A stretch of 37,858 nt of DNA, from the NCBI GenBank assembly GCA_020052445.1, contig JAGVPA010000025.1, positions 1-37,858 of the forward strand, given 5' to 3'. The notes under the pieces are model-generated. The model worked only from the letters and a program-made list of their open reading frames with translations. It made no database searches and had not been told where the DNA came from. The stretch's first letter is position 1. Every line of letters starts with the position of its first letter. Origin of the DNA: a bacterium (GTDB taxonomy: Bacteria; Patescibacteriota; Patescibacteriia; UBA9934; GWF2-40-263). Below are positions 5,720 to 37,735 of the stretch, piece after piece. Both the position numbers and the translations under genes were made by a program.

Positions 5720-5946
5720 GGAATCGAATTACTAATTTGATACTAATATACAAATTTGGATTGGTGCCACGCGGCGAGATCCTTCTCCCTTCGACTCGTT
5801 GGCCTCGCTCAGGGCTCTGAGTCCAATCGCCTTTCGATCCGACTCAAGGCGACCATGAGGCCGATCGAATGGTCGAAGAGCTGGCTCAGGATGACGGATG
5901 ATGCGTGCCAAATTCGTATATTCGCCAACATTCGTAATTCGGTTCC
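5720..5946. repeat. nested composite palindrome between virB4-like and VirB8-like genes
   Basis: Outer AT-rich arms (about 5720-5759 and 5908-5946) are imperfect inverted copies. Inside lie GC-rich segments of the dispersed family with GCGAGATCC, CCCTTCGAC, GCTCAGGG and GGATGACGG blocks, inverted copies of which recur at 8004-8095, 9471-9545 and 36768-36836. The element fills almost the whole gap and ends one base before the VirB4 stop codon. Confidence 0.65.
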
Positions 5947-22599: not shown

Positions 22600-23110
22600 A
22601 CCAAAAAAAACGGACGGCCTCTATTTCGAGAACCGCCCAGACACGATGGACTAAACTCCGCAGCCGAAGCGCGAAGTTAATGAAAGAATCATCGGCGCCT
22701 CGATGGGTGCCGAAAGGAGAACGGGCCAACAGGCCGGTCAGGAACCGACTCGCTGGCTCGAGCTCGAAGCAGGACCTCTCTGAATCCACGACCGTGGTCG
22801 GAATCTTCCAGATTAGCCGACCAACTTTGTCGTCTTGTCTGCCCTTCGAACGTTCGGGACAGGAGACGGGGTCAGGCCGAACCGGAGTTTTGCAACCACC
22901 GTAGCCACAGACGTAGGTGAGAAGAGTGAGATCAGAGATAGACATAGGTGACCCCGTCCCAAAACCGTCGACTGAACTGTCGAAGCGGAGGGTCACTGAC
23001 AGCAGACCGAATCTGCTCCGGATTACTCTAAGGTTCTTTGTGTGCTCAAGGGTTCTGATAACGGGAACGCAAAGCACCTGCTACTCATCTCTCTGCCCTA
23101 CCATGCCTTT
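22600..23110. other. GC-rich noncoding stretch with many hairpins, unassigned
   Basis: About 510 bases hold no gene I can support. There are strong local hairpins: GGCGCC..GGTGCC near 22708, GGCC/GGCC near 22725, CCAC/GTGG near 22787, and GTGCT..AGCAC near 23042-23077. GACGGGGTCA (22865-22874) is inverted as TGACCCCGTC (22949-22958), and a TGCCCTTCGAACGTTCGGGA repeat sits at 22841. A minus-strand terminator ends it at 22603-22638. It could be a structured RNA transcribed leftward, or a pile of palindromic repeats. It does not match RNase P RNA, tmRNA or SRP RNA as far as I can see. Confidence 0.4.
22603..22638 (-). terminator. minus-strand terminator without an assigned gene
   Basis: On the minus strand GGGCGGTTCTC pairs imperfectly with GAGGCCGTCC (plus 22612-22638) and is followed by T8 (plus 22603-22610). 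No coding gene upstream on this strand is convincing. Confidence 0.55.
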
Positions 23111-25340: not shown

Positions 25341-28300
25341 TTATTGTGTCGCCCAATCAACAATAATCACACCATCATAATTGATCCAGGGATTTGCTAT
25401 ATCACCAACTCTATCTTCTAGTGCATCTACGCACCAATTACTCGATGCTTCACTTGGACAATCTGTTGGGTTGCATTCTTCTCCATAACACCCTGTGCCT
25501 TCGCCAGTATCGGCATCTTCTGTTCCTGCATCACAATACCCCGTACACCACCCCCAATTGTCCTTCACGTGGACGCGGGGTTGATAGACGCATTTACCGG
25601 CGGCGTCTTCGGCAAAGCCGACGCCATTAATTGGATTTCCGGTACACGGTGAGTTGAGTAGACGGCCGGTGGCTTCGTCGGCCCATTGGCATTTTCCTTG
25701 ATCGGCGTCATCATCAAACAACATTTGGGCAAAATCTTGTGAACAGTAATAGTCGTGTTCAAAACTGAAGTAGGCGGTTTCGCAGGCGTCGGCGGTTAGG
25801 CCCCATTCGTCTGGATCTTGGGTAGCTCCGCCGCCGCAGATGGTGACATCCTCTTCTTCCAAACCACGACGATTTTTGTAATAACTGCTGGTGCTGCCGA
25901 CGTCGCCGGTTTGACTGTCAGGTGGCCAATTATAACCTGCGCTTTCCGTGATACGATCCCCATCACCCCAGTCGACAATTACGTTTCTGATTGGCATCTG
26001 GTTGGAATTGGCCCAAGCATAGAATTTAACTGCGGCATGGTAGTTACCATCGGAACCCAACAAGTCATCGCTATCAAAACCGTTGACACTGAATTTTCCT
26101 TGATTGAGCTCAAGACAATTACTGTCATAGCACTCACCAACCGAAGCGATAACCGGCGGAGTTGGCGTGCCACTATTGGGACCGGAACCATAAATATCGC
26201 CAGTGCCGGAAATATCGTCTGTACCGTCTGTAACTAAATCTGAATATGTCGCACTAAGACCAACCTGAACATAAGCACCATTGCTTGTAAGACCCGCGTC
26301 CCAATCATACTGCCAAACATCAAACACCTTGGCAAACCATTGCTGTAACAATTCCTTCACTGAATAAGCTGTTTCATTGGAACTAAGGCCCTGATCATCA
26401 AAACCGTCTTCGCTTATTCCACCTTGTGCTATGTCGGAAGAATCACCGGCTGTCCATTCTTCAAACGGAGCGGCCAGAACCGAGTAAGAACCACCGTTGG
26501 TTAATTCGTCGTCATCAACCGTTTGCCACTGTTGTTCTTTGGGGTAGTCGTAAGAATCGAGACAATCGTTTGGTGGCTTTATATAAAGACCCAGACTGTT
26601 TGAACCGCAAGAAGCTACCGGCAATGGCCAAGAATCAGCAAAATCCAACATTTCGCTTGGAGTATTTAATCCGAAATACTCCTTAAACAAAGCGCGACCG
26701 GCATTATCGGGGTCAGATTCAGAAGTGTAATCATAATTATCGGCAAAATGACTACCTGAATCGCCGGTGACTGATGTAAACAACGATGGTGCATCATTCC
26801 AAAGACGATTGGCCCAAGCTTTGTTGCCGTCTGTAATATTGGAAACTTCTGTTAGTTCATAACAACCGACGTAAGGAAAAAAGGAACCGAAAATTTCTGT
26901 TTGCGACGGAAGAATGCAAGATTGAGAAGTTGGGCAAAAAATACTATCTTCGTCGCAAGACCCATAAGTTATACTGCAACTTCCACCGCATTCAAAACCA
27001 GTACAACTACAATCATTGGAACTGATATCTAAACAATCCCCACTTGAATAACAAATTCCGCCAGTCTCTGAACACGAACCAATTTGACCCAAAATCGGCA
27101 AATAAGATACCCCGTAAGCGCCATGTTCTAAACCATCACCATAAGCATAAAAATAACCACTCGTGATTCCGGCGTTATCACCATCTCTGACAACATCTTG
27201 AACAGCTTCCGTTAAATTTGTACCAATTGTAGAATCCCCAACCGGCACGCCTCTTCTTACACAATCCATGAATTTAGTTTTAACAGAATAACCCTCCGCC
27301 CAATCCCAACCGGTATCTGCCGTTTGATAATTATATAAATCATAAGCCGTAATTACCGGCGTATCAAAGCGACTGATTTCACTGCCAAGACCGCCGTCAA
27401 TTTCATCAGCATAATCAGATGAACTGTAATATACACTCTCCAAACTTTCTAAATCATCGTTACATGAGGTATTAACATCGTCTCCTTCGATGTGATAACT
27501 ATCCAAAGGAATACAGAAATACGGGCAATCGAGTACATTATCTTCGAGGTAAGTACCATTGGCCTTGATGGTGGTATCGTCTGGATTTCCAGTGTTATCG
27601 TCATCATGGCAAATCGTGTGTTCACCGGGCCAGTCGATATCGTTTACATAATCTCCGCTACTTCTGTCCAATTCGTTAGTATAACCCTCAAAAGGGTACA
27701 TTGTTTGTGTTTGCGCATCGTCCGGATCCATATCTTGATTGCAAACACCCATTATAGCCACATAACCCCCGGGGCAATAAGCATTGTTTTGGCAATAATG
27801 TGTGGTGTCTTGTCCGTCTGCTCCACCGTACAGACTATAAAAACAACCGCCTCTTCCCGGTCGACCGGTTTCTCCATGAATTTGATTAGGATCACTAAAC
27901 GCACAAGCATAATCCATTTCTTCAACTCCACCTATTTCGTCAATCGTCACGCCGGTCGGATACAGGTCGGCGTACAAACCCAATTCTGTGCAATAATAGG
28001 ATTCTTCGTTTATACCAAAACCGGCATCGGTATCGTTGGCGTAGGCGTTACGTGAACCGATTAATTGGTCGCTTGGAAACCAGGTAAGACAAGCCGGATA
28101 ATCATTGGTATCTGAACCGAAAAGTTGGATGGAAGTATCGCGTTCAATGCAGTAACCGTCCCAACCGTACATTACGTCTTTACGAGTTAATTTTTGACAA
28201 ATACCGGTGCCTGGGTAGCCATCACTTACCAAAGCGCTCGGATTACAAGTTACATCGTCTTCACAAGAAGCGCCCGGAACATCACCGCCGACACAAACCC

Positions 28301-31300
28301 CTGACAAAACCAATTCAGTTGGCGTATTTAAAGGATAATAACGAACCGCCGCACTCTCACCATATTCGGCTTTATCGTAAGAGCAGAGACAGTCATTGTT
28401 TATTTCATAAGAACCGTCTGGCAATATGGTCGGAGCGCAAGTTGTAGCGTTGTTGAAACCGTAAACGTAAGTGTATGGCAAAGCGTCCAGGTATTTGTCC
28501 CTGGTGTAACATGTTTCATCGGTGGTTCCGTCATCGTCACTATCGCATGAATATGTAGCATAACGATCTGACAAGAAACCGGAAATTTCGCCGTAATTAT
28601 TAAGACTGTTGTCATCAAAAACATCGCCCAATTCATCCGGATCAATCCAGTTTTCCACCACCAAATAAGTAAACGGTGAGGAAATTTCCGGATAACCGCG
28701 ACAGGTTTTATCCTCGGCGTCATCTATTTCAAAAGCATTACCATCTATTCCAACCAAACACGAACTGTCGTAACAAGTACCGGTTTTGGCCAAAACACCC
28801 GGCACACAAGTAGCTCCTCCGGAACAAGAATGAGTTCCGGTTTGATCGCAAGTTTCCACAGAATTTGCCGTGCCGGTTGTGGTATCGGTGCAAACACCGT
28901 TTTTACAATCGTTGTAAGGAAGTGTGGTGCAGTCAAGATCAACACTGCAATAAGTTGCACCAGCCTCTTCGCAATAACCAATAATACACTCACCACCTTG
29001 GGAACACTCATTACTATCAGAACACGAGTTGCCTGAATCGGTGCAATAACCGGCCGTACAAGTATCCCCATTGTTGCCATTACAAGCCGAGGCAGTATAA
29101 ACCAAATGATAATTATTTAATTCAATGTCATAATTTTCAAGATCAGCCTGATTCAAATCAAGAACGTCCGTACAAACATAACCCTGAGCCGGAGGACAAT
29201 CAGCATCAACCGAGCATGAAACAACGGGATTTTCCAGGTAATACGGTATTTCCCCATCGCTATTGGTACAATAACCGCCCGACGAAAGATTCACTTGATC
29301 ATAATATTGAACCGGCAATTGCTCCGGAATGGCAAAACCGGAATAATCCATACCATACCAAGAAACATCGCGAGAGGTGTAACGTTCGGAATCCAAAACC
29401 GTCGGCACGTCCCTAGACCAACTGGCACAAGCGCCCTCATCGCTGGTAGTTGAGTAAGCATTACAAAGATTCACTCCCTGGCAAACATCCGTCCACTCGG
29501 CCGTACGTTCGTCCCAAGCGTCATAGGAATCCGAGCAAGCCAACCATTCGGCGCACTCACGGTCACGATAAACTTTAAGGACACGATTGGTGTCGTCTTC
29601 AAAAACATAACCGGCAAGATTAAAATCGTGGCGATCGTCTACAGCATCAACAATGCCATCATCATTTGAATCAAACACTGCTTCATCATTACCCACACTA
29701 CCATCGTTATCACTATCCAAATTCGCACAGATTCCTTCCACTTCATTGTTAGAAATACTATCCGTACCTAACTGACAATCCGTATCATAGACGCAAGCTG
29801 AGCCATAAAAAACCGTAGAAGTACCGGCTGAATTTGCCGGTCCCTCAACTGTACTCAAATTAGAAATTCCGCTGCCGGTACTGACAAAATAAGCGCAACG
29901 ATTGTAACAAACATTAATTGAATCGCCGGTCGTGGTGGTAAATTCTCCATTGTTTGGATCACTGCAAGAAACCGGGTCTTGGAACGAACGCGGATTTTCA
30001 CCAAAGAAAATGTCGGCGTGTTCGGAAATCAGGTAACTTGGTGAAGAAGAATAAGTTAATTCTTGATTCATGACATCGTCAAAAAGTACGCAACCTTCTT
30101 GCAAACTCACTTGGCCATTGCAACGATCAGTCGAGGTACTATTTTCTTCGTCGATGGTTTCGTTATCAAGATAGAAATAAGACGTACCTTCGAGATTTTC
30201 GTTTTCTTTGGTATCGAGTGGATCGATAAATTCCGTACAATAGTCGTAATTCGAACTGCAAGTACCGGCCCAACCGTCGTAATCATCATCGCCACTAAAC
30301 CAAAGACTGGATAAAGTGCCATTTTTTAAATAACTGCCGTTTGTGATAGTGCAAGTACCGAGGTCAGAAGAAGCACAGCCGGCATCGTTTGTACATGAAG
30401 TGGTATTATCGCTACAGATACCGGTGCCGTAGCAGAACTCGGTCGTACCGGTTCTAAACCAACCGTCATAAGAAACTGAATTTAAAGATACGCCGGACTT
30501 ATATTCGCAAGACTTATTGCCCGGGTCTTTAAAGTAATAATTTTCAGCTTTGGTTGTCACCCATTCGCCGCAGAATAATTCATTGTTGTTACAGAGAATA
30601 TCGTCATAAGAATCCGGCTGATTCAAAAGATAAGCCGATTCAAAACTCGTAACTAAAGAACCGTCGTCGCTGAAAGTCGGGAGTCCAACTTCTGTACAAC
30701 CCATATTGGCGGCCGAACAACTAAAGTTACCGTCATCGATAAGATAAGCCACTTCATCGGCCGGCACAAAAACCGTTTCTGGCCCAAGCGCCAAATGGAC
30801 AGCGAGCGGCGTTGGCAAAGTGCCGTCATAATCAAACTGACACTGATTGTGACCAGCGGTAATTGTGCACAATTCTTGACCGGTCAAAGTGCCATCGAGT
30901 GTGCAGGACGTAGCCGAAGCAACGGCGTCTTCCTCGGTATCATGAGCCGTGTAAGCAAAATTAGTATCGCCGTCGGTTGAGACAGGATTATAACAGGTGG
31001 CGTTGAAAATTTGAGCGTAAGTGGCGTCCGAATTTTGCGTAACATAGAAATCGTCGCAACCCACCGCCCCCTCGGAACAGATACTCGAGAATTGATAAAT
31101 ATTAAAGGTGCTATTATTTTGATCGGCGTATTCCTCGCAACCTAAATAATACTGTGCCGAAACCGCGCCTTCCGGAGTTTCGTCGCAAGTTGAAGGTGTG
31201 ACCCAAGAATTTTTTATCAAAGTCAAATTTTCCTCGGTCTGTTTGAGTTGAATATTATCGATGTAAAAAGTTTGGGCGCCGGCACTCAACGAATAAAAAC

Positions 31301-34300
31301 CAAGAATGGCGTTGTCATCAAAATTTGTCAGTAGTGAAGTATCGAGCGGCCCCAATTCGTACAACTGCCAGCTACCGGATAAAGCGACTGAAGTTAAATT
31401 GGCTATCGAAGTTGGGGCAGCCTGACAATTTGGCACCGACAAATTTGGTGCGGTTTCACAATCCGGAACAGCGGCCGCCAAATCTCGAATTATTCCACCA
31501 GTTGTGCCTCCCTGCTCTGTTAGAGCTACGCCAATGTTACCAGAACCCTTGGCCCAGAATTTAAGCACGTAAGTTTTTCCAACCACCAATTCATCCACCA
31601 GAGTCCCGCAACTTTCTGCGCCGTTTTCTACCGTACAAAGAGTGCCGGACGAAGCACAACCATCGGCTGTCGCACAAGCGCTTGTGCGATTTGCATTGTA
31701 ATAATCCTGAAGAGTTTTAAAACCATCTCCGGCTGCCGTGGCGTAAACCCGCAAAGAATGTCCGTCTACCGCCACCGATTCATTACTAATTGTCAAAGTA
31801 GAATTTGTGGTTCCGGACTTAACATAACTATCATAAGTTCCATCCTCAAAATAATCGGTCAAAACAATTGACGAATTACGACTGCCGCCGCCAGTGTATT
31901 CTCGACAACCGGCTGATGAAGCTGAACAGACCGTGCTTTCATCGGGCTCGATAAAATATCGACACTCACCGGAACCGGTCCAGTAACCGCCGGAGTCGTT
32001 GCAATCAGTTGCATTAGCATCGGTTTTTCGGTAAGCGGTACAAACATCGGAGATACTGATAGTTTCGGAATATAAACGATAATGGATATCGCCGAGGTTG
32101 TCGTAGAATTCGCGACAGTCGGGATTTATTAAGACGTCACCATGCACCCGACAAGTCGTTTCGGCGGCCAAAACTGTTATGCTGTCTTGACAAACTAACG
32201 TATTTTCGGAAGTCACATCCCAAGTGGTGCAAGGAGCATTACCAAGAATTGAAAATTCTGTGGCATCCAAAACATTATCAAGATCAGTGTCCACAAAAGC
32301 AGGGGTTGTAAGATTGGAACTTAATAACTGATAAGAAACCAGTTGATAACCGGTCATGTCCGAGCCTTCCCAGGTAAAATAAACAGCACTCCGATCTACA
32401 TTATTTACATCTGCCATTTCTGGCGTCAGACAAGCGCGCAAATGAGAATAAGCCTCTATCCCTTCAGTTTCCAAATTAGTAAATTCGTCACAACCAACAT
32501 CTGAAGAACTGCAAGTCTGGGCTGAGTCGGCGATAAAATAAAGCGGGAATTCTTCGGTATCATAATCAGTCGACTCCTGTTTGTAAGTCGCATAACCGAC
32601 GCACTCGCTCGGACATTGATCGCCGTCAGAAATAACAGCTGGTACGGCCGGGTCACCGTCACTCGGCGTGTAAAGAGAACAACCTACTTCGGTGGCCGAA
32701 CAAAGCTGAGCATAACTGTCGCAATCGGCCGGATCGGTTGCTTCGCCAGTGCAGCCTAGCCAGTCTGGTGGAATTTGCAGGTATTCAGCAGTTGGACTGC
32801 CATTATAATCAGAATGAAAACTGGAAGCGGTTTCACGGGCCTCGAGTTGAATAGCATCAATATAAGTTCCGAGGGTCGGGGCTCCACTAAAACTTAAATC
32901 GGCCACAATCCACAAACGATCATTGGTTAAAATTGGCGTGTTGAAAGTACATTCATAACTTGTAAAAACAGAAACTGAGGTTGTTGTTGCAGACTTTGTA
33001 ACACTGTTACCGGCACTTGTTGTGCAATTCGAACTGTAGCCGGTCAAACTGACAACCGAATTATCTGAAGCGCTAAGGGTTAGCGAAGCTGTAACAACAT
33101 TACCCACAGCTGCTCCTTTAGCATAAAAAGATAGGACGTAAGAATGATTTTGTTGAAGAGGAATATCGTCTTGACTAAGAACACTCCCGACACTTAATAA
33201 GTAATTACTGTTTCCTTGCTGACTCAAGGAATCGTTTTCATTATAAACAGGTGGGCTAACGGTCGACACTGACCACAAATCGGCCAAACCATCTTCATCC
33301 TCATCGTCTTCAAAACTGGGATTCTGGATAATATTTAAAGAAAGTTCATTGTCTCCAATAGCATAAACTTCGGAACAACCGGCTTCGGACTCAGTACAAG
33401 TTTCGACTTCAGAATTAAAATATGCACGGTCCTCATAAGCATAAACATTGTATGAACCGTCATCGTCTACCCCATCGGCATCGGTGTCGTAAGTAAAAGA
33501 GGCGCGAGTTGAATAACTGTTGTTGCTATAATACTGCTCCGAATCATCACGAATCGAAGTTTCATAAACTTCGTCACCCGGCAACCATTCATAAGCATCA
33601 TCACTAACATCATCGGCCGTGCCGGCATTATCTAAATATTTATTGGTGCGATACCACAAACAACCGGCATTGGCCGCCGAACAAACACCTTGGTCAAGGC
33701 TGTTAAAAAGCCAAGTGCCAATTTCGTTGGAATCAGAATTGGTAAAATTTAGACAAGAAAGACTTTCTTCGGGACAAGAATCACCGTTAAAATCCCAAGT
33801 GTTTTTTTCACGAACACAATTACCGTAAGCTTCACAGGTGCCATCATCATTCTCAGCTAAACAGCTTGGCGAATCAACACAAGCCGCTGAACGAGCGGAA
33901 ATCATGGAACTGATGGACAATTCCCCGATCATGGAAGCGTCACAGCGTTGCTGGGGATATTTGATAATCCAATTCGGATCAATCATGTGACACCAAGGAA
34001 GCGAAGAACTGGCCTTCCCTTCACTGTCACAACTATTAAAATTATCCACCACTTCCTGAAGAGTTATCGGATCGCTGGTATCAGACAATGCCGCGGCCAT
34101 TTCCCAACCGACGGGGATAATACGCGCTTTGCGCAGTTTAACTAAATTACCGTAACAATAACCATAGGTATAACACAAAGAATCTTGATTATGAATTCTA
34201 TCGTCCGGAGAATAAAGCGGCCAGTCGCCATGCAAATAACCGGCCTCAAGAGCATCGGCTACGGTAATAACCTCGGTACCAAAAGTCCGACCGATCCCTT

Positions 34301-35519
34301 GAATTAACGAGGCGTCAGCCACGCAATTATTAATTTGGCGAATACTTGGACTTTGCGGACAGACAGCTAGTTCGGACAAAACATTATATTCGCTTAAAAC
34401 AACCGGCGTGGTGGAAATCAGATCGGCATAAAACACCTCAGCATCGGCTGAAGTTGAAGAATTTTGCGACAAGTCATCGAAAGGATCTATATCAATATCT
34501 TCGGCCTCAAAAAAACCGGTTTGCAAATTTTGAATAAAAGTCCCGACTAAAGTAGTGGTAAAAATTTTAACCGTCTGATAAGCGATGGATGTCCAAATAT
34601 CTTGGTTGGCCAACATGGTGGCAAAAAATTTATCCCTCTTCCCTGTGGTTGCCTCCTCGGCCGCACTTTTAAGTTGTTGTTGAACCATGACGCTGGGAGT
34701 CAAAACAGCTCCGGTGGTCGGATCGGTAACCGGTTTAATACCCAGACTAAACAAACTCTCCATGAAATCGGCATTTTTTTTATCCCAACTTTTTTCCAAT
34801 ATTTTATTATTAACAATGGATAAATAGGCCACACTGCTTTGACCAGGCTGAAAACTTTTGGCCAGCATATTTAAAGCTTGCCCGGTTGGGTCCTCGGTTG
34901 ATTCCAAGGTGTTTTGTATAAAACCGTCCCAATTTTCCGCCACCGCCTGCCATTCGCATTTTGGCGGACGTGGTGCATACATGCCCTGAATGCCGATTTG
35001 CAAACCCAGTCTAAGTGCAGGGCTTGATGGAGCACAAAGATTAAAATCTAAATCAGTATAAGCAACAATAACATTTGATAAGCTACCCAAACCCTCAGCC
35101 GCCAAATCCAAACCAAAAGCCTTCCAGCTTTCATAACCGGTGAGCACCTGATAAAGAGGTTCTTCGCCCGGAGCGCCGTTGGCTATCCAAACCGCCGCAT
35201 TATAAGCCACCGTATCAGCCGAATAACTAACCAGATCAAAAATCGCACTTACGGCCATTTGTTGCAAAATTGGAGCGATGTGATTTTTCCAAAGATCGAG
35301 TATATACTTTCCGGTATTTCCAGCTGACTCCGGAATATTTTCTGGCATTAAGGGAATTGTGGAGACTAAATTAGCCGATTCAATAGTCGTGGTTACTCCT
35401 ATGTCAGGTAAGCTTGGTCTCGCAGAACCCCCCTCGGCCAAAACGTAATTCGCCGAAAACAAACCACTAAAGAAAACCAATAACAGAAAAACCCCGCCTA
35501 TTTTTTGTTTTGAAAACAT
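25341..35519 (-). CDS. giant cysteine-rich secreted surface protein (3392 residues)
   Basis: It has a Sec signal peptide (cleavage after VLA, about residue 28). A Cys-poor helical N-domain (about 30-340) comes first, then a Cys-rich body. The body repeats C(S/T)xxxxGCxx(Y/F/V) at least seven times (near 610, 705, 943, 1003, 1197, 1482, 1602). Two jelly-roll carbohydrate-binding-like modules lie at about 720-896 (NPSFEDDEDEDGLADLW) and 1220-1436. An EF/dockerin-like Asp repeat sits near 1935-1960 and EGF-like CxxxxxC runs near 2145-2220. A PKD-like segment (VIVDWGDGD, about 3180) precedes a conserved-looking end (RVHVKDNWGWC). It is presumably an extracellular adhesin or pilus-like fibre tied to the T4SS locus. 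No SD; a TATAAA lies 8 bases before the ATG. Confidence 0.88.
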   Translation of the reverse strand: MFSKQKIGGVFLLLVFFSGLFSANYVLAEGGSARPSLPDIGVTTTIESANLVSTIPLMPENIPESAGNTGKYILDLWKNHIAPILQQMAVSAIFDLVSYSADTVAYNAAVWIANGAPGEEPLYQVLTGYESWKAFGLDLAAEGLGSLSNVIVAYTDLDFNLCAPSSPALRLGLQIGIQGMYAPRPPKCEWQAVAENWDGFIQNTLESTEDPTGQALNMLAKSFQPGQSSVAYLSIVNNKILEKSWDKKNADFMESLFSLGIKPVTDPTTGAVLTPSVMVQQQLKSAAEEATTGKRDKFFATMLANQDIWTSIAYQTVKIFTTTLVGTFIQNLQTGFFEAEDIDIDPFDDLSQNSSTSADAEVFYADLISTTPVVLSEYNVLSELAVCPQSPSIRQINNCVADASLIQGIGRTFGTEVITVADALEAGYLHGDWPLYSPDDRIHNQDSLCYTYGYCYGNLVKLRKARIIPVGWEMAAALSDTSDPITLQEVVDNFNSCDSEGKASSSLPWCHMIDPNWIIKYPQQRCDASMIGELSISSMISARSAACVDSPSCLAENDDGTCEAYGNCVREKNTWDFNGDSCPEESLSCLNFTNSDSNEIGTWLFNSLDQGVCSAANAGCLWYRTNKYLDNAGTADDVSDDAYEWLPGDEVYETSIRDDSEQYYSNNSYSTRASFTYDTDADGVDDDGSYNVYAYEDRAYFNSEVETCTESEAGCSEVYAIGDNELSLNIIQNPSFEDDEDEDGLADLWSVSTVSPPVYNENDSLSQQGNSNYLLSVGSVLSQDDIPLQQNHSYVLSFYAKGAAVGNVVTASLTLSASDNSVVSLTGYSSNCTTSAGNSVTKSATTTSVSVFTSYECTFNTPILTNDRLWIVADLSFSGAPTLGTYIDAIQLEARETASSFHSDYNGSPTAEYLQIPPDWLGCTGEATDPADCDSYAQLCSATEVGCSLYTPSDGDPAVPAVISDGDQCPSECVGYATYKQESTDYDTEEFPLYFIADSAQTCSSSDVGCDEFTNLETEGIEAYSHLRACLTPEMADVNNVDRSAVYFTWEGSDMTGYQLVSYQLLSSNLTTPAFVDTDLDNVLDATEFSILGNAPCTTWDVTSENTLVCQDSITVLAAETTCRVHGDVLINPDCREFYDNLGDIHYRLYSETISISDVCTAYRKTDANATDCNDSGGYWTGSGECRYFIEPDESTVCSASSAGCREYTGGGSRNSSIVLTDYFEDGTYDSYVKSGTTNSTLTISNESVAVDGHSLRVYATAAGDGFKTLQDYYNANRTSACATADGCASSGTLCTVENGAESCGTLVDELVVGKTYVLKFWAKGSGNIGVALTEQGGTTGGIIRDLAAAVPDCETAPNLSVPNCQAAPTSIANLTSVALSGSWQLYELGPLDTSLLTNFDDNAILGFYSLSAGAQTFYIDNIQLKQTEENLTLIKNSWVTPSTCDETPEGAVSAQYYLGCEEYADQNNSTFNIYQFSSICSEGAVGCDDFYVTQNSDATYAQIFNATCYNPVSTDGDTNFAYTAHDTEEDAVASATSCTLDGTLTGQELCTITAGHNQCQFDYDGTLPTPLAVHLALGPETVFVPADEVAYLIDDGNFSCSAANMGCTEVGLPTFSDDGSLVTSFESAYLLNQPDSYDDILCNNNELFCGEWVTTKAENYYFKDPGNKSCEYKSGVSLNSVSYDGWFRTGTTEFCYGTGICSDNTTSCTNDAGCASSDLGTCTITNGSYLKNGTLSSLWFSGDDDYDGWAGTCSSNYDYCTEFIDPLDTKENENLEGTSYFYLDNETIDEENSTSTDRCNGQVSLQEGCVLFDDVMNQELTYSSSPSYLISEHADIFFGENPRSFQDPVSCSDPNNGEFTTTTGDSINVCYNRCAYFVSTGSGISNLSTVEGPANSAGTSTVFYGSACVYDTDCQLGTDSISNNEVEGICANLDSDNDGSVGNDEAVFDSNDDGIVDAVDDRHDFNLAGYVFEDDTNRVLKVYRDRECAEWLACSDSYDAWDERTAEWTDVCQGVNLCNAYSTTSDEGACASWSRDVPTVLDSERYTSRDVSWYGMDYSGFAIPEQLPVQYYDQVNLSSGGYCTNSDGEIPYYLENPVVSCSVDADCPPAQGYVCTDVLDLNQADLENYDIELNNYHLVYTASACNGNNGDTCTAGYCTDSGNSCSDSNECSQGGECIIGYCEEAGATYCSVDLDCTTLPYNDCKNGVCTDTTTGTANSVETCDQTGTHSCSGGATCVPGVLAKTGTCYDSSCLVGIDGNAFEIDDAEDKTCRGYPEISSPFTYLVVENWIDPDELGDVFDDNSLNNYGEISGFLSDRYATYSCDSDDDGTTDETCYTRDKYLDALPYTYVYGFNNATTCAPTILPDGSYEINNDCLCSYDKAEYGESAAVRYYPLNTPTELVLSGVCVGGDVPGASCEDDVTCNPSALVSDGYPGTGICQKLTRKDVMYGWDGYCIERDTSIQLFGSDTNDYPACLTWFPSDQLIGSRNAYANDTDAGFGINEESYYCTELGLYADLYPTGVTIDEIGGVEEMDYACAFSDPNQIHGETGRPGRGGCFYSLYGGADGQDTTHYCQNNAYCPGGYVAIMGVCNQDMDPDDAQTQTMYPFEGYTNELDRSSGDYVNDIDWPGEHTICHDDDNTGNPDDTTIKANGTYLEDNVLDCPYFCIPLDSYHIEGDDVNTSCNDDLESLESVYYSSSDYADEIDGGLGSEISRFDTPVITAYDLYNYQTADTGWDWAEGYSVKTKFMDCVRRGVPVGDSTIGTNLTEAVQDVVRDGDNAGITSGYFYAYGDGLEHGAYGVSYLPILGQIGSCSETGGICYSSGDCLDISSNDCSCTGFECGGSCSITYGSCDEDSIFCPTSQSCILPSQTEIFGSFFPYVGCYELTEVSNITDGNKAWANRLWNDAPSLFTSVTGDSGSHFADNYDYTSESDPDNAGRALFKEYFGLNTPSEMLDFADSWPLPVASCGSNSLGLYIKPPNDCLDSYDYPKEQQWQTVDDDELTNGGSYSVLAAPFEEWTAGDSSDIAQGGISEDGFDDQGLSSNETAYSVKELLQQWFAKVFDVWQYDWDAGLTSNGAYVQVGLSATYSDLVTDGTDDISGTGDIYGSGPNSGTPTPPVIASVGECYDSNCLELNQGKFSVNGFDSDDLLGSDGNYHAAVKFYAWANSNQMPIRNVIVDWGDGDRITESAGYNWPPDSQTGDVGSTSSYYKNRRGLEEEDVTICGGGATQDPDEWGLTADACETAYFSFEHDYYCSQDFAQMLFDDDADQGKCQWADEATGRLLNSPCTGNPINGVGFAEDAAGKCVYQPRVHVKDNWGWCTGYCDAGTEDADTGEGTGCYGEECNPTDCPSEASSNWCVDALEDRVGDIANPWINYDGVIIVDWATQ

Positions 35520-36535: not shown

Positions 36536-36835
36536 GTGATGAAAGGGGACGAAGGGGTGGAAGGGGTTGGAGGGAGGTTGTGGAAAAGTAAAACCCGTCA
36601 TTCTGAACCGAGAAAGACTTCACTGCATTACTTCCCCCACCCCACCCTCCCCCGTCGCGGCGACAGGAGAGGGAGAGTTCTTTTTTGCATTCTTTTTTAA
36701 ACCAAATTCCGATAATCAAGAAGATCCTTTAATCCTTGTAATCATGGTTCAGACAACCAACTTAACGAGGCGAGATCCCTCTCCCTTCGACCCGGCTCAG
36801 GGCTCTGAGTCCAATCGAAGAGCTGGCTCGGGATG
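36536..36835. repeat. cluster of three dispersed repeat families
   Basis: The 416 bases 36510-36925 hold no gene. From left to right there is a G-rich tract of AGGGGxxGAAGGGG units (36541-36575), a CCCCACCCTCCCCCGTCGCG hairpin unit (36637-36680), and GCGAGATCCCTCTCCC with CTCAGGGCTCTGAGTCC and GGGATGACGG (36770-36836). Confidence 0.65.
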
Positions 36836-36855
36836 ACGGTGGTAAAAAAACAAAA

Positions 36856-36925: not shown

Positions 36926-37735
36926 TTAATCCCTTAATCCGTGCCAAAACCCCACCCAATCCTCAACCGATAAATTCTCAGCCCTGGCCTTTTCGCCCAA
37001 ACCAAGTTTTTTCAAAATTTCCCGAGTTTTCTCCGAGGTACAAATTCCCGCCTTGTCTAAATTTCCATGTAACTGTTTACGACGAGAAGAAAAGCCAACC
37101 TTAACAATTTTCAAAACTTCCTCCGGATCCACCTCACCCAATCGTTTCGAACGAAGATCGAGGCGAATGACGGTCGAATCAACTTTTGGGGCTGGCCGAA
37201 AAGAGCCTCGACTAACTTTCATCATCTTCTTCCCTTCTGAATACAGCTGACAGGCAATCGAAAGGACACTCGTATTTGGTGGTACGGCCAAAATCCTATC
37301 AGCCACCTCACGCTGAACCATAAGCGTCAACCTCGACGGTTTCGGCTCGGCTCGAAACAAGGTTTCAAGAATTGGTGAAGTGATGTTGTATGGAATATTG
37401 GCAACGACGGAATATTTATTTTTTCCAATCAACCGACGAATTTGTTGCCAAGTTTGCTCGGCCAAAATATCGCCTTGAATTAAATTAATTTTATCACCAA
37501 ATTTTTCCTTAAGCGGTTCAATAAGATCCTCGTCCGTCTCAACAGCAATCACCCGGGCCTCAGCTTCCAACAAAGCCTCGGTCAGAGTTCCCTGTCCCGA
37601 GCCGAGTCGAGGGGCCTGCCCCGGACCAATCTCCAAAACCAAATCACCCGATTTTACCTCGGCCGATTCGACAATTTTACGAACAATATTTTTATCGTAA
37701 AGAAAATTTTGCCCGAGAGATTTTTTGGCTTTCAT
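36926..37735 (-). CDS. rsmA: 16S rRNA adenine dimethyltransferase with an 8-residue insertion in motif I
   Basis: This is a 269-residue RsmA/KsgA, which dimethylates the two adjacent adenines near the 3' end of 16S rRNA. Family features include KKSLGQNFLYD at the start, SAM motif I from 34 (LEIGPGQ), VETD near 65-68, catalytic NIPY (113-116), and FRPAPKVDSTVI (179-190). Between LEIGPGQ and GTLTEALL sit eight extra residues, APRLGSGQ (41-48). These come from a 24-bp repeat-like insertion in the glycine loop that contacts SAM. The start at 37735 matches the family start; the frame is open further upstream to 37792 but that part is not RsmA-like. No SD is visible. Confidence 0.95.
   Translation of the reverse strand: MKAKKSLGQNFLYDKNIVRKIVESAEVKSGDLVLEIGPGQAPRLGSGQGTLTEALLEAEARVIAVETDEDLIEPLKEKFGDKINLIQGDILAEQTWQQIRRLIGKNKYSVVANIPYNITSPILETLFRAEPKPSRLTLMVQREVADRILAVPPNTSVLSIACQLYSEGKKMMKVSRGSFRPAPKVDSTVIRLDLRSKRLGEVDPEEVLKIVKVGFSSRRKQLHGNLDKAGICTSEKTREILKKLGLGEKARAENLSVEDWVGFWHGLRD
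37592..37615. repeat. 24-bp repeat-derived insertion inside rsmA
   Basis: CTGTCCCGAGCCGAGTCGAG (from 37592) resembles the inverse complement of 22841-22862 (TGTCCCGAACGTTCGAAGGG on the minus strand) and the CCCTTCGAC/GCTCAGGG family. On the coding strand it is bounded by GGGCAG and GGACAG, a possible 6-bp target duplication. It keeps the reading frame. Confidence 0.75.

Follow-up and report, generated by a model that had tools for sequence, protein, structure and literature searches.

The RPE of Rickettsia and the WPE of Wolbachia are dispersed palindromic repeats that have entered a wide range of unrelated housekeeping genes with the reading frame kept (PMC3767692, PMC10969869). Intragenic REPs are known in several phyla; REPs are 20-40 bp long, form a short stem-loop, are found as composites and dimers, and have some copies inside ORFs (PMC3733652). 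Even tnpA-REP genes have been described with such repeats inside them and their frame preserved (PMC6006769). Here we analyzed a 37,858-nt stretch of the 105-contig draft genome of an uncultivated, small-genome member of the Patescibacteriota (contig JAGVPA010000025.1 of assembly GCA_020052445.1, hereafter the window), in which a short repeat interrupts the gene for the near-universal 16S rRNA dimethyltransferase RsmA.

The repeat family to which this insert belongs resembles RPEs in being dispersed and in frame in several unrelated genes (those for RsmA, a MurE-like ligase, the RplS N-terminus and a membrane protein, as well as genes of other genomes), and the likeness to Rickettsia palindromic elements drawn in an earlier note on this DNA fits the behavior of the repeat. 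However, RPEs are described as ~100-150 bp long and confined to Rickettsia/Wolbachia and are reported at solvent-exposed sites, whereas the units described here are 20-24 bp, are found in many phyla and include one in a cofactor-binding loop; the family is set apart from RPE/WPE on the basis of size and host as described. With REPs and GTAG-/CGTC-tagged repeats the family shares its size, a putative short stem-loop, composites and dimers, and some copies in ORFs, but neither GTAG nor CGTC stands at the ends of the RsmA insert, none of the Y1 transposase loci read links a RAYT gene to the repeat, and many members of the family lie within genes. The insert works like an RPE, yet it is neither a described RPE nor a GTAG/CGTC-tagged REP, since size, host and tag differ. 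Searches of open-licence full text by element sequence and by encoded peptides retrieved no description of the family, and nothing relevant was retrieved on such repeats in Patescibacteria, both being weak evidence of absence. In-frame palindromic repeats as such are already known (RPEs, intragenic REPs); what is new is the repeat family, its breadth, and an insertion in a catalytic loop.

The insert in motif I of RsmA

The following features of the window define the locus:

36929..37735, minus strand: rsmA/ksgA, 16S rRNA (A1518/A1519) dimethyltransferase, assigned by TIGR00755, PF00398 and PDB KsgA structures
37591..37618: insertion region, CCTG + 20-bp core TCCCGAGCCGAGTCGAGGGG (37595-37614) + CCTG, encoding APRLGSGQ on the minus strand; defined by the gap in relatives, the empty site of a genus-mate and genomic copies
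37595..37614, plus strand: core repeat of family A (CCCGAGnnnnnTCGAGGGG), from pattern searches and stem-pair covariation with family B

The gene lies at the right end of the window, near the contig end (37858), with its likely ATG start at 37733-37735 and its stop at 36926-36928. TIGR00755 matches the protein over its whole length (residues 1-261, E=4.1e-68, 229.5 bits against a curated cut-off of 171), and PF00398 also matches it with E=1.5e-50 and 172 bits, but RsmA of the window departs from the RsmA/KsgA family in carrying eight extra residues in motif I. The coding strand reads LVLEIGPGQ-APRLGSGQ-GTLTEALL, with APRLGSGQ between GPGQ and GTLT. The uninterrupted motif E-I-G-P-G-x-G-x-L-T is absent from this protein, split by APRLGSGQ, and G-S-G-Q-G-T-L-T is re-formed downstream. 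Elsewhere in the window, positions 25341-35519 on the minus strand hold a single ORF of 3392 residues, whose product is rich in cysteine, has a signal-like N-terminus and is putatively a surface protein.

The earlier note had proposed a 24-base in-frame insert in the SAM-binding loop of RsmA, and alignments with relatives confirmed it. The protein sequences of 29 relatives (46-77% identity) align with the window RsmA along its whole length, and all 29 show an eight-column gap opposite APRLGSGQ, at a point where their loop has a fixed length; the three PDB KsgA alignments listed have the same gap and no eight extra residues. Occurrence of the eight residues across distant relatives, named in the note as a possible refutation, was looked for and found in 0 of these 29 relatives. 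A DNA alignment with a relative of the same genus (G001, 77% amino acid identity) shows a clean 24-bp insertion, the empty site being CCGGGG followed directly by CAGGGAA (in context, GGTCCGGGG before CAGGGAA), with a single copy of CCTG. The insertion into rsmA postdates the split from this genus-mate and is recent on roughly the scale of the genus.

On the plus strand the occupied site reads TTC-CCTG-TCCCGAGCCGAGTCGAGGGG-CCTG-CCCCGG, with the 20-bp core flanked by 4-bp CCTG direct repeats. The net insert is 24 bp and can be placed in five equivalent ways, between 37591-37614 and 37595-37618, one of which (37592-37615) is the position first given for it. Its ends are TGTCCC/GGGGC, and all six reading frames of the element are open. 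The 24-bp pattern of insert plus flank has one match in the window, with 0 expected in shuffles. The description of the repeat as palindromic holds in part: the family has a putative short stem with one covarying pair, but the RsmA copy is not an unusually stable hairpin (folding energy z ~ +1.3). Rfam returned no RNA family at the insert, its matches being tRNAs and the tmRNA only.

A dispersed repeat family

The genome holds four further copies of the 24-bp pattern with at most three mismatches, a lower bound, as are all genome copy counts here, which come from pattern searches. A 23-nt stretch of the insert, GCCCCTCGACTCGGCTCGGGACA, is identical in copies behind tRNA-Arg (contig C2) and tRNA-Leu (C105), the 23 bases shared by the insert and these tRNA-linked copies being TGTCCCGAGCCGAGTCGAGGGGC. 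Close variants of the module lie behind tRNA-Val, tRNA-Pro and tmRNA. A commoner variety, family B (CCCTTCGACTCGGCTCAGGG), makes up the majority of the 26 matches in a looser genome search. The main difference between families A and B lies at a single pair of the putative stem (T-A, 17 copies; C-G, 7; C-A, 2), and there is one other, single compensatory case; the covariation at the one pair suggests a stem. Two related elements lie elsewhere in the window:

36783..36802, plus strand: copy of family B (CCCTTCGACCCGGCTCAGGG) in the intergenic DNA downstream of rsmA, within a larger composite (~36765-36839) resembling 5769-5897
22841..22861, minus strand: related palindrome (TGTCCCGAACGTTCGAAGGGC) that shares the arms and has a shorter center, in overlapping ORFs without clear function

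The latter site had been singled out in the earlier note as the likeness of the insert. Its arms do match (TGTCCCGA....TCGAAGGGC, expected 0.01), but its center is shorter, and the copies adjacent to tRNA and tmRNA genes outside the window match much better. As judged from these comparisons, the closest family members are the modules behind tRNA/tmRNA genes and the in-frame gene copies, and not mainly the 22841 site.

We also noted larger composites around such modules. A ~105-bp composite begins directly at the encoded CCA end of tRNAs for Arg, Val (two genes), Leu, Pro and Ser and of the tmRNA (L036, L033, L037, L040, L039, L042 and L046; alignment A3). It consists of a hairpin (TTCGACTACAGCTGTA...GCTGTAGTCGAA) followed by the repeat module and ends near CGCTCATGGCAGGCCA. 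Its half-hairpin was matched 15 times in its own genome but not once in 34 relatives, among which the same genus is represented, and the composite looks like a lineage-specific tRNA-end element. A shortened form (1332-1370) lies behind the tRNA-Arg(gcg) of the window. The intergenic stretches at 5765-5897 and 36765-36839 are two composites related to each other, built of ACGNGGCGAGATCC..., one copy of family B and GCTCAGGGCTCTGAGTCCAATCG, and closing in a sequence like that of CGTC-tagged REPs (CCGTCATCC); near 5897 and 36839 these composites carry CCGTC. A RAYT/IS200 link to the repeat was rejected, as none of the five Y1-type transposase loci of the genome that were read (L061-L064 and L213, the last a weaker RAYT-like match) has a repeat copy at its flanks.

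In-frame copies in other genes and genomes

Within the same genome, family B copies lie in frame in the genes of a MurE-like ligase and of a membrane protein, and at the N-terminal end of RplS. The MurE-like copy has no clean empty site in comparison with relatives, because its loop varies in length anyway. RsmA itself has been hit more than once. In one relative (G012), a composite with a family B repeat lies in frame ahead of motif I (L205:1085-1195), and related family B composites are in frame in the IleRS (L194) and GreA (L203) genes; the repeat copy in G012 RsmA is nested between GGAGTTTCCCCCC...GGGGGGAAACTCC arms. In another (G020), RsmA (L207:419-1348) carries a different repeat in frame twice (PPLSKG..LPLGKG; PPLSKGRVAE.SYLPLGKGEHEGV). 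Three or more independent insertions have thus struck RsmA in this bacterial family, and only that of the window genome falls inside motif I.

A scan for CCCTCGACTCNGCTCGGGACA with one genome per species returned at least 115 stretches. By title, the MAGs among the matches listed belong to Patescibacteria lineages, Acidobacteria, Chloroflexi, Omnitrophota, Phycisphaerae, Zixiibacteriota, Eremiobacterota, Bacteroidota and others. The ORFs were read at 16 of these stretches, chosen independently of coding status, and in ~12 of the 16 the repeat lies in frame within a recognizable gene. Hosts in unrelated MAGs include methionine aminopeptidase (VPSGVEG), GlyA, ArgS (LSRAESR), a glycosyltransferase (LDSARD), a XerC-like recombinase (PSTPLGT), PfkB, RseP, a metallo-hydrolase and others, assigned by sequence reading save for three that were compared with PDB sequences. 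In these three, the residues that are extra at the repeat number ~9 (methionine aminopeptidase), ~12 (XerC-like recombinase) and 10 (GlyA, a variant copy). Location in genes does not amount to enrichment, bacterial genomes being mostly coding; the in-frame position within conserved genes is the point.

State of the gene and origin of the insert

The rsmA gene is single-copy in the genome, with an intact frame and no stops. With the insert excluded, comparison of the window and G001 genes gave a dN/dS of 0.098, an average over the whole branch that says little about the time since insertion. Changes away from the consensus specific to each lineage number 13 in the window gene and 16 in that of G001, and 5 in each at columns conserved at 80% or more; there is no sign of relaxed selection, and the rate is no faster than the sister's. 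The h45 GGAA target loop of the genome's own 16S rRNA is intact (GCGGAAGC; GTAGCGGAAGCTGTGGGTGGATCA in L246). The conserved sequence, the balanced changes and the intact rRNA loop fit a still-working gene, but give no date for the insertion within that branch. The generic profile Methyltransf_25 aligns from residue 43, taking LGSGQG of the insert as motif I, and a single-sequence AlphaFold model of the protein, with a pLDDT of only 43, was set aside. We infer from the sequence that RsmA activity has probably been retained and that either the old or the new glycine loop could hold SAM. The earlier note expected the insert to alter SAM binding; this may overstate the case, since the insert brings back G-S-G-Q-G directly before the conserved TLTEALL and relaxed selection is not seen.

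The origin that we consider probable is the copying of a REP/RPE-like family A module in frame into rsmA after the split from the genus-mate, with the protein probably still in use because the element brings its own G-S-G-Q. What is established is the insertion and its recency, its correspondence to a genomic family, the presence of one rsmA only, with conserved coding sequence, the intact rRNA target loop, and the recurrence of in-frame insertion by the family. The short module (core TCCCGAGCCGAGTCGAGGGG) would most likely have been donated by the identical modules behind tRNA genes. It would have landed in frame either with a 4-bp CCTG duplication or via microhomology to CGGGGCAGG; a target-site duplication would be in keeping with the CCTG direct repeat, and microhomology equally with the likeness of the target CGGGGCAGG to the element end CGGGACAGG. 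With every one of its six frames open and a length divisible by three (24 bp), the insert adds eight residues to the glycine-rich loop of motif I. The G-S-G-Q supplied by the element would let LGSGQGTLTEALL read again as motif I (G-x-G-x-G-x-L-T), beside a second, now extra, GPGQ loop, and the insertion may be tolerated through this re-created G-x-G-x-G (GPGQ-APRLGSGQ-GTLT), should the new loop be the one in use.

That the insertion instead inactivated RsmA, leaving a very young pseudogene that cannot bind SAM and whose frame has not yet decayed, strikes us as rather unlikely. RsmA is dispensable in E. coli, hence its loss is survivable, and no rsmA match was found in 3 of 60 relatives, so loss occurs. 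The insert sits in a loop of fixed length among all 29 aligned relatives, the slipped register turns the invariant Glu of EIGPG into Arg (RLGSG), and a 96%-conserved Gly just downstream is Glu in this protein. Set against inactivation are the open frame, the lineage-specific rate equal to the sister's and the intact rRNA target, together with the G-x-G-x-G pattern that the insert keeps.

Two further accounts each appear highly improbable. A local tandem duplication of VLEIGPGQ (imperfect EIGPGQ / RLGSGQ) could draw on the resemblance of the last bases of the insert, CGGGACAGG, to the target CGGGGCAGG, and on the freedom of the aligner to put the gap on either side. The insert, however, matches the neighboring 24 bases at only 11/24 (counted by hand) and the distant genomic repeat copies at 23/23, and on this ground we discarded the duplication. 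A repeat-mediated misjoin, adding 24 bases during sequencing or assembly, has in its favor the draft state of the genome, the multicopy nature of the repeat and the closeness of the gene to a contig end, but one and the same gene runs on across both junctions, in frame with the genus-mate, the 24-bp repeat is shorter than a read, and in-frame family copies occur in many independently assembled genomes.

A wider reading is tentative, and we hold it to be possible, with the odds somewhat against it: palindromic repeats of 20-25 bp, open in all six frames and present in many uncultivated phyla, would be protein-coding selfish DNA that inserts repeatedly in frame into essential genes, with RsmA surviving insertion into its catalytic core via a supplied glycine motif. 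For annotation, VPSGVEG, SLDSARD, PSTPLGT, LSRAESR and similar peptides of predicted proteins are to be taken as derived from the repeat and not as features of the protein family. In-frame palindromic insertions have so far been regarded mainly as a peculiarity of Rickettsia/Wolbachia, placed where the protein surface tolerates them. A family of far shorter repeats across many uncultivated phyla would make in-frame insertion a general route to protein change, and the RsmA case offers a direct test of whether an insert can be tolerated within a cofactor-binding loop.
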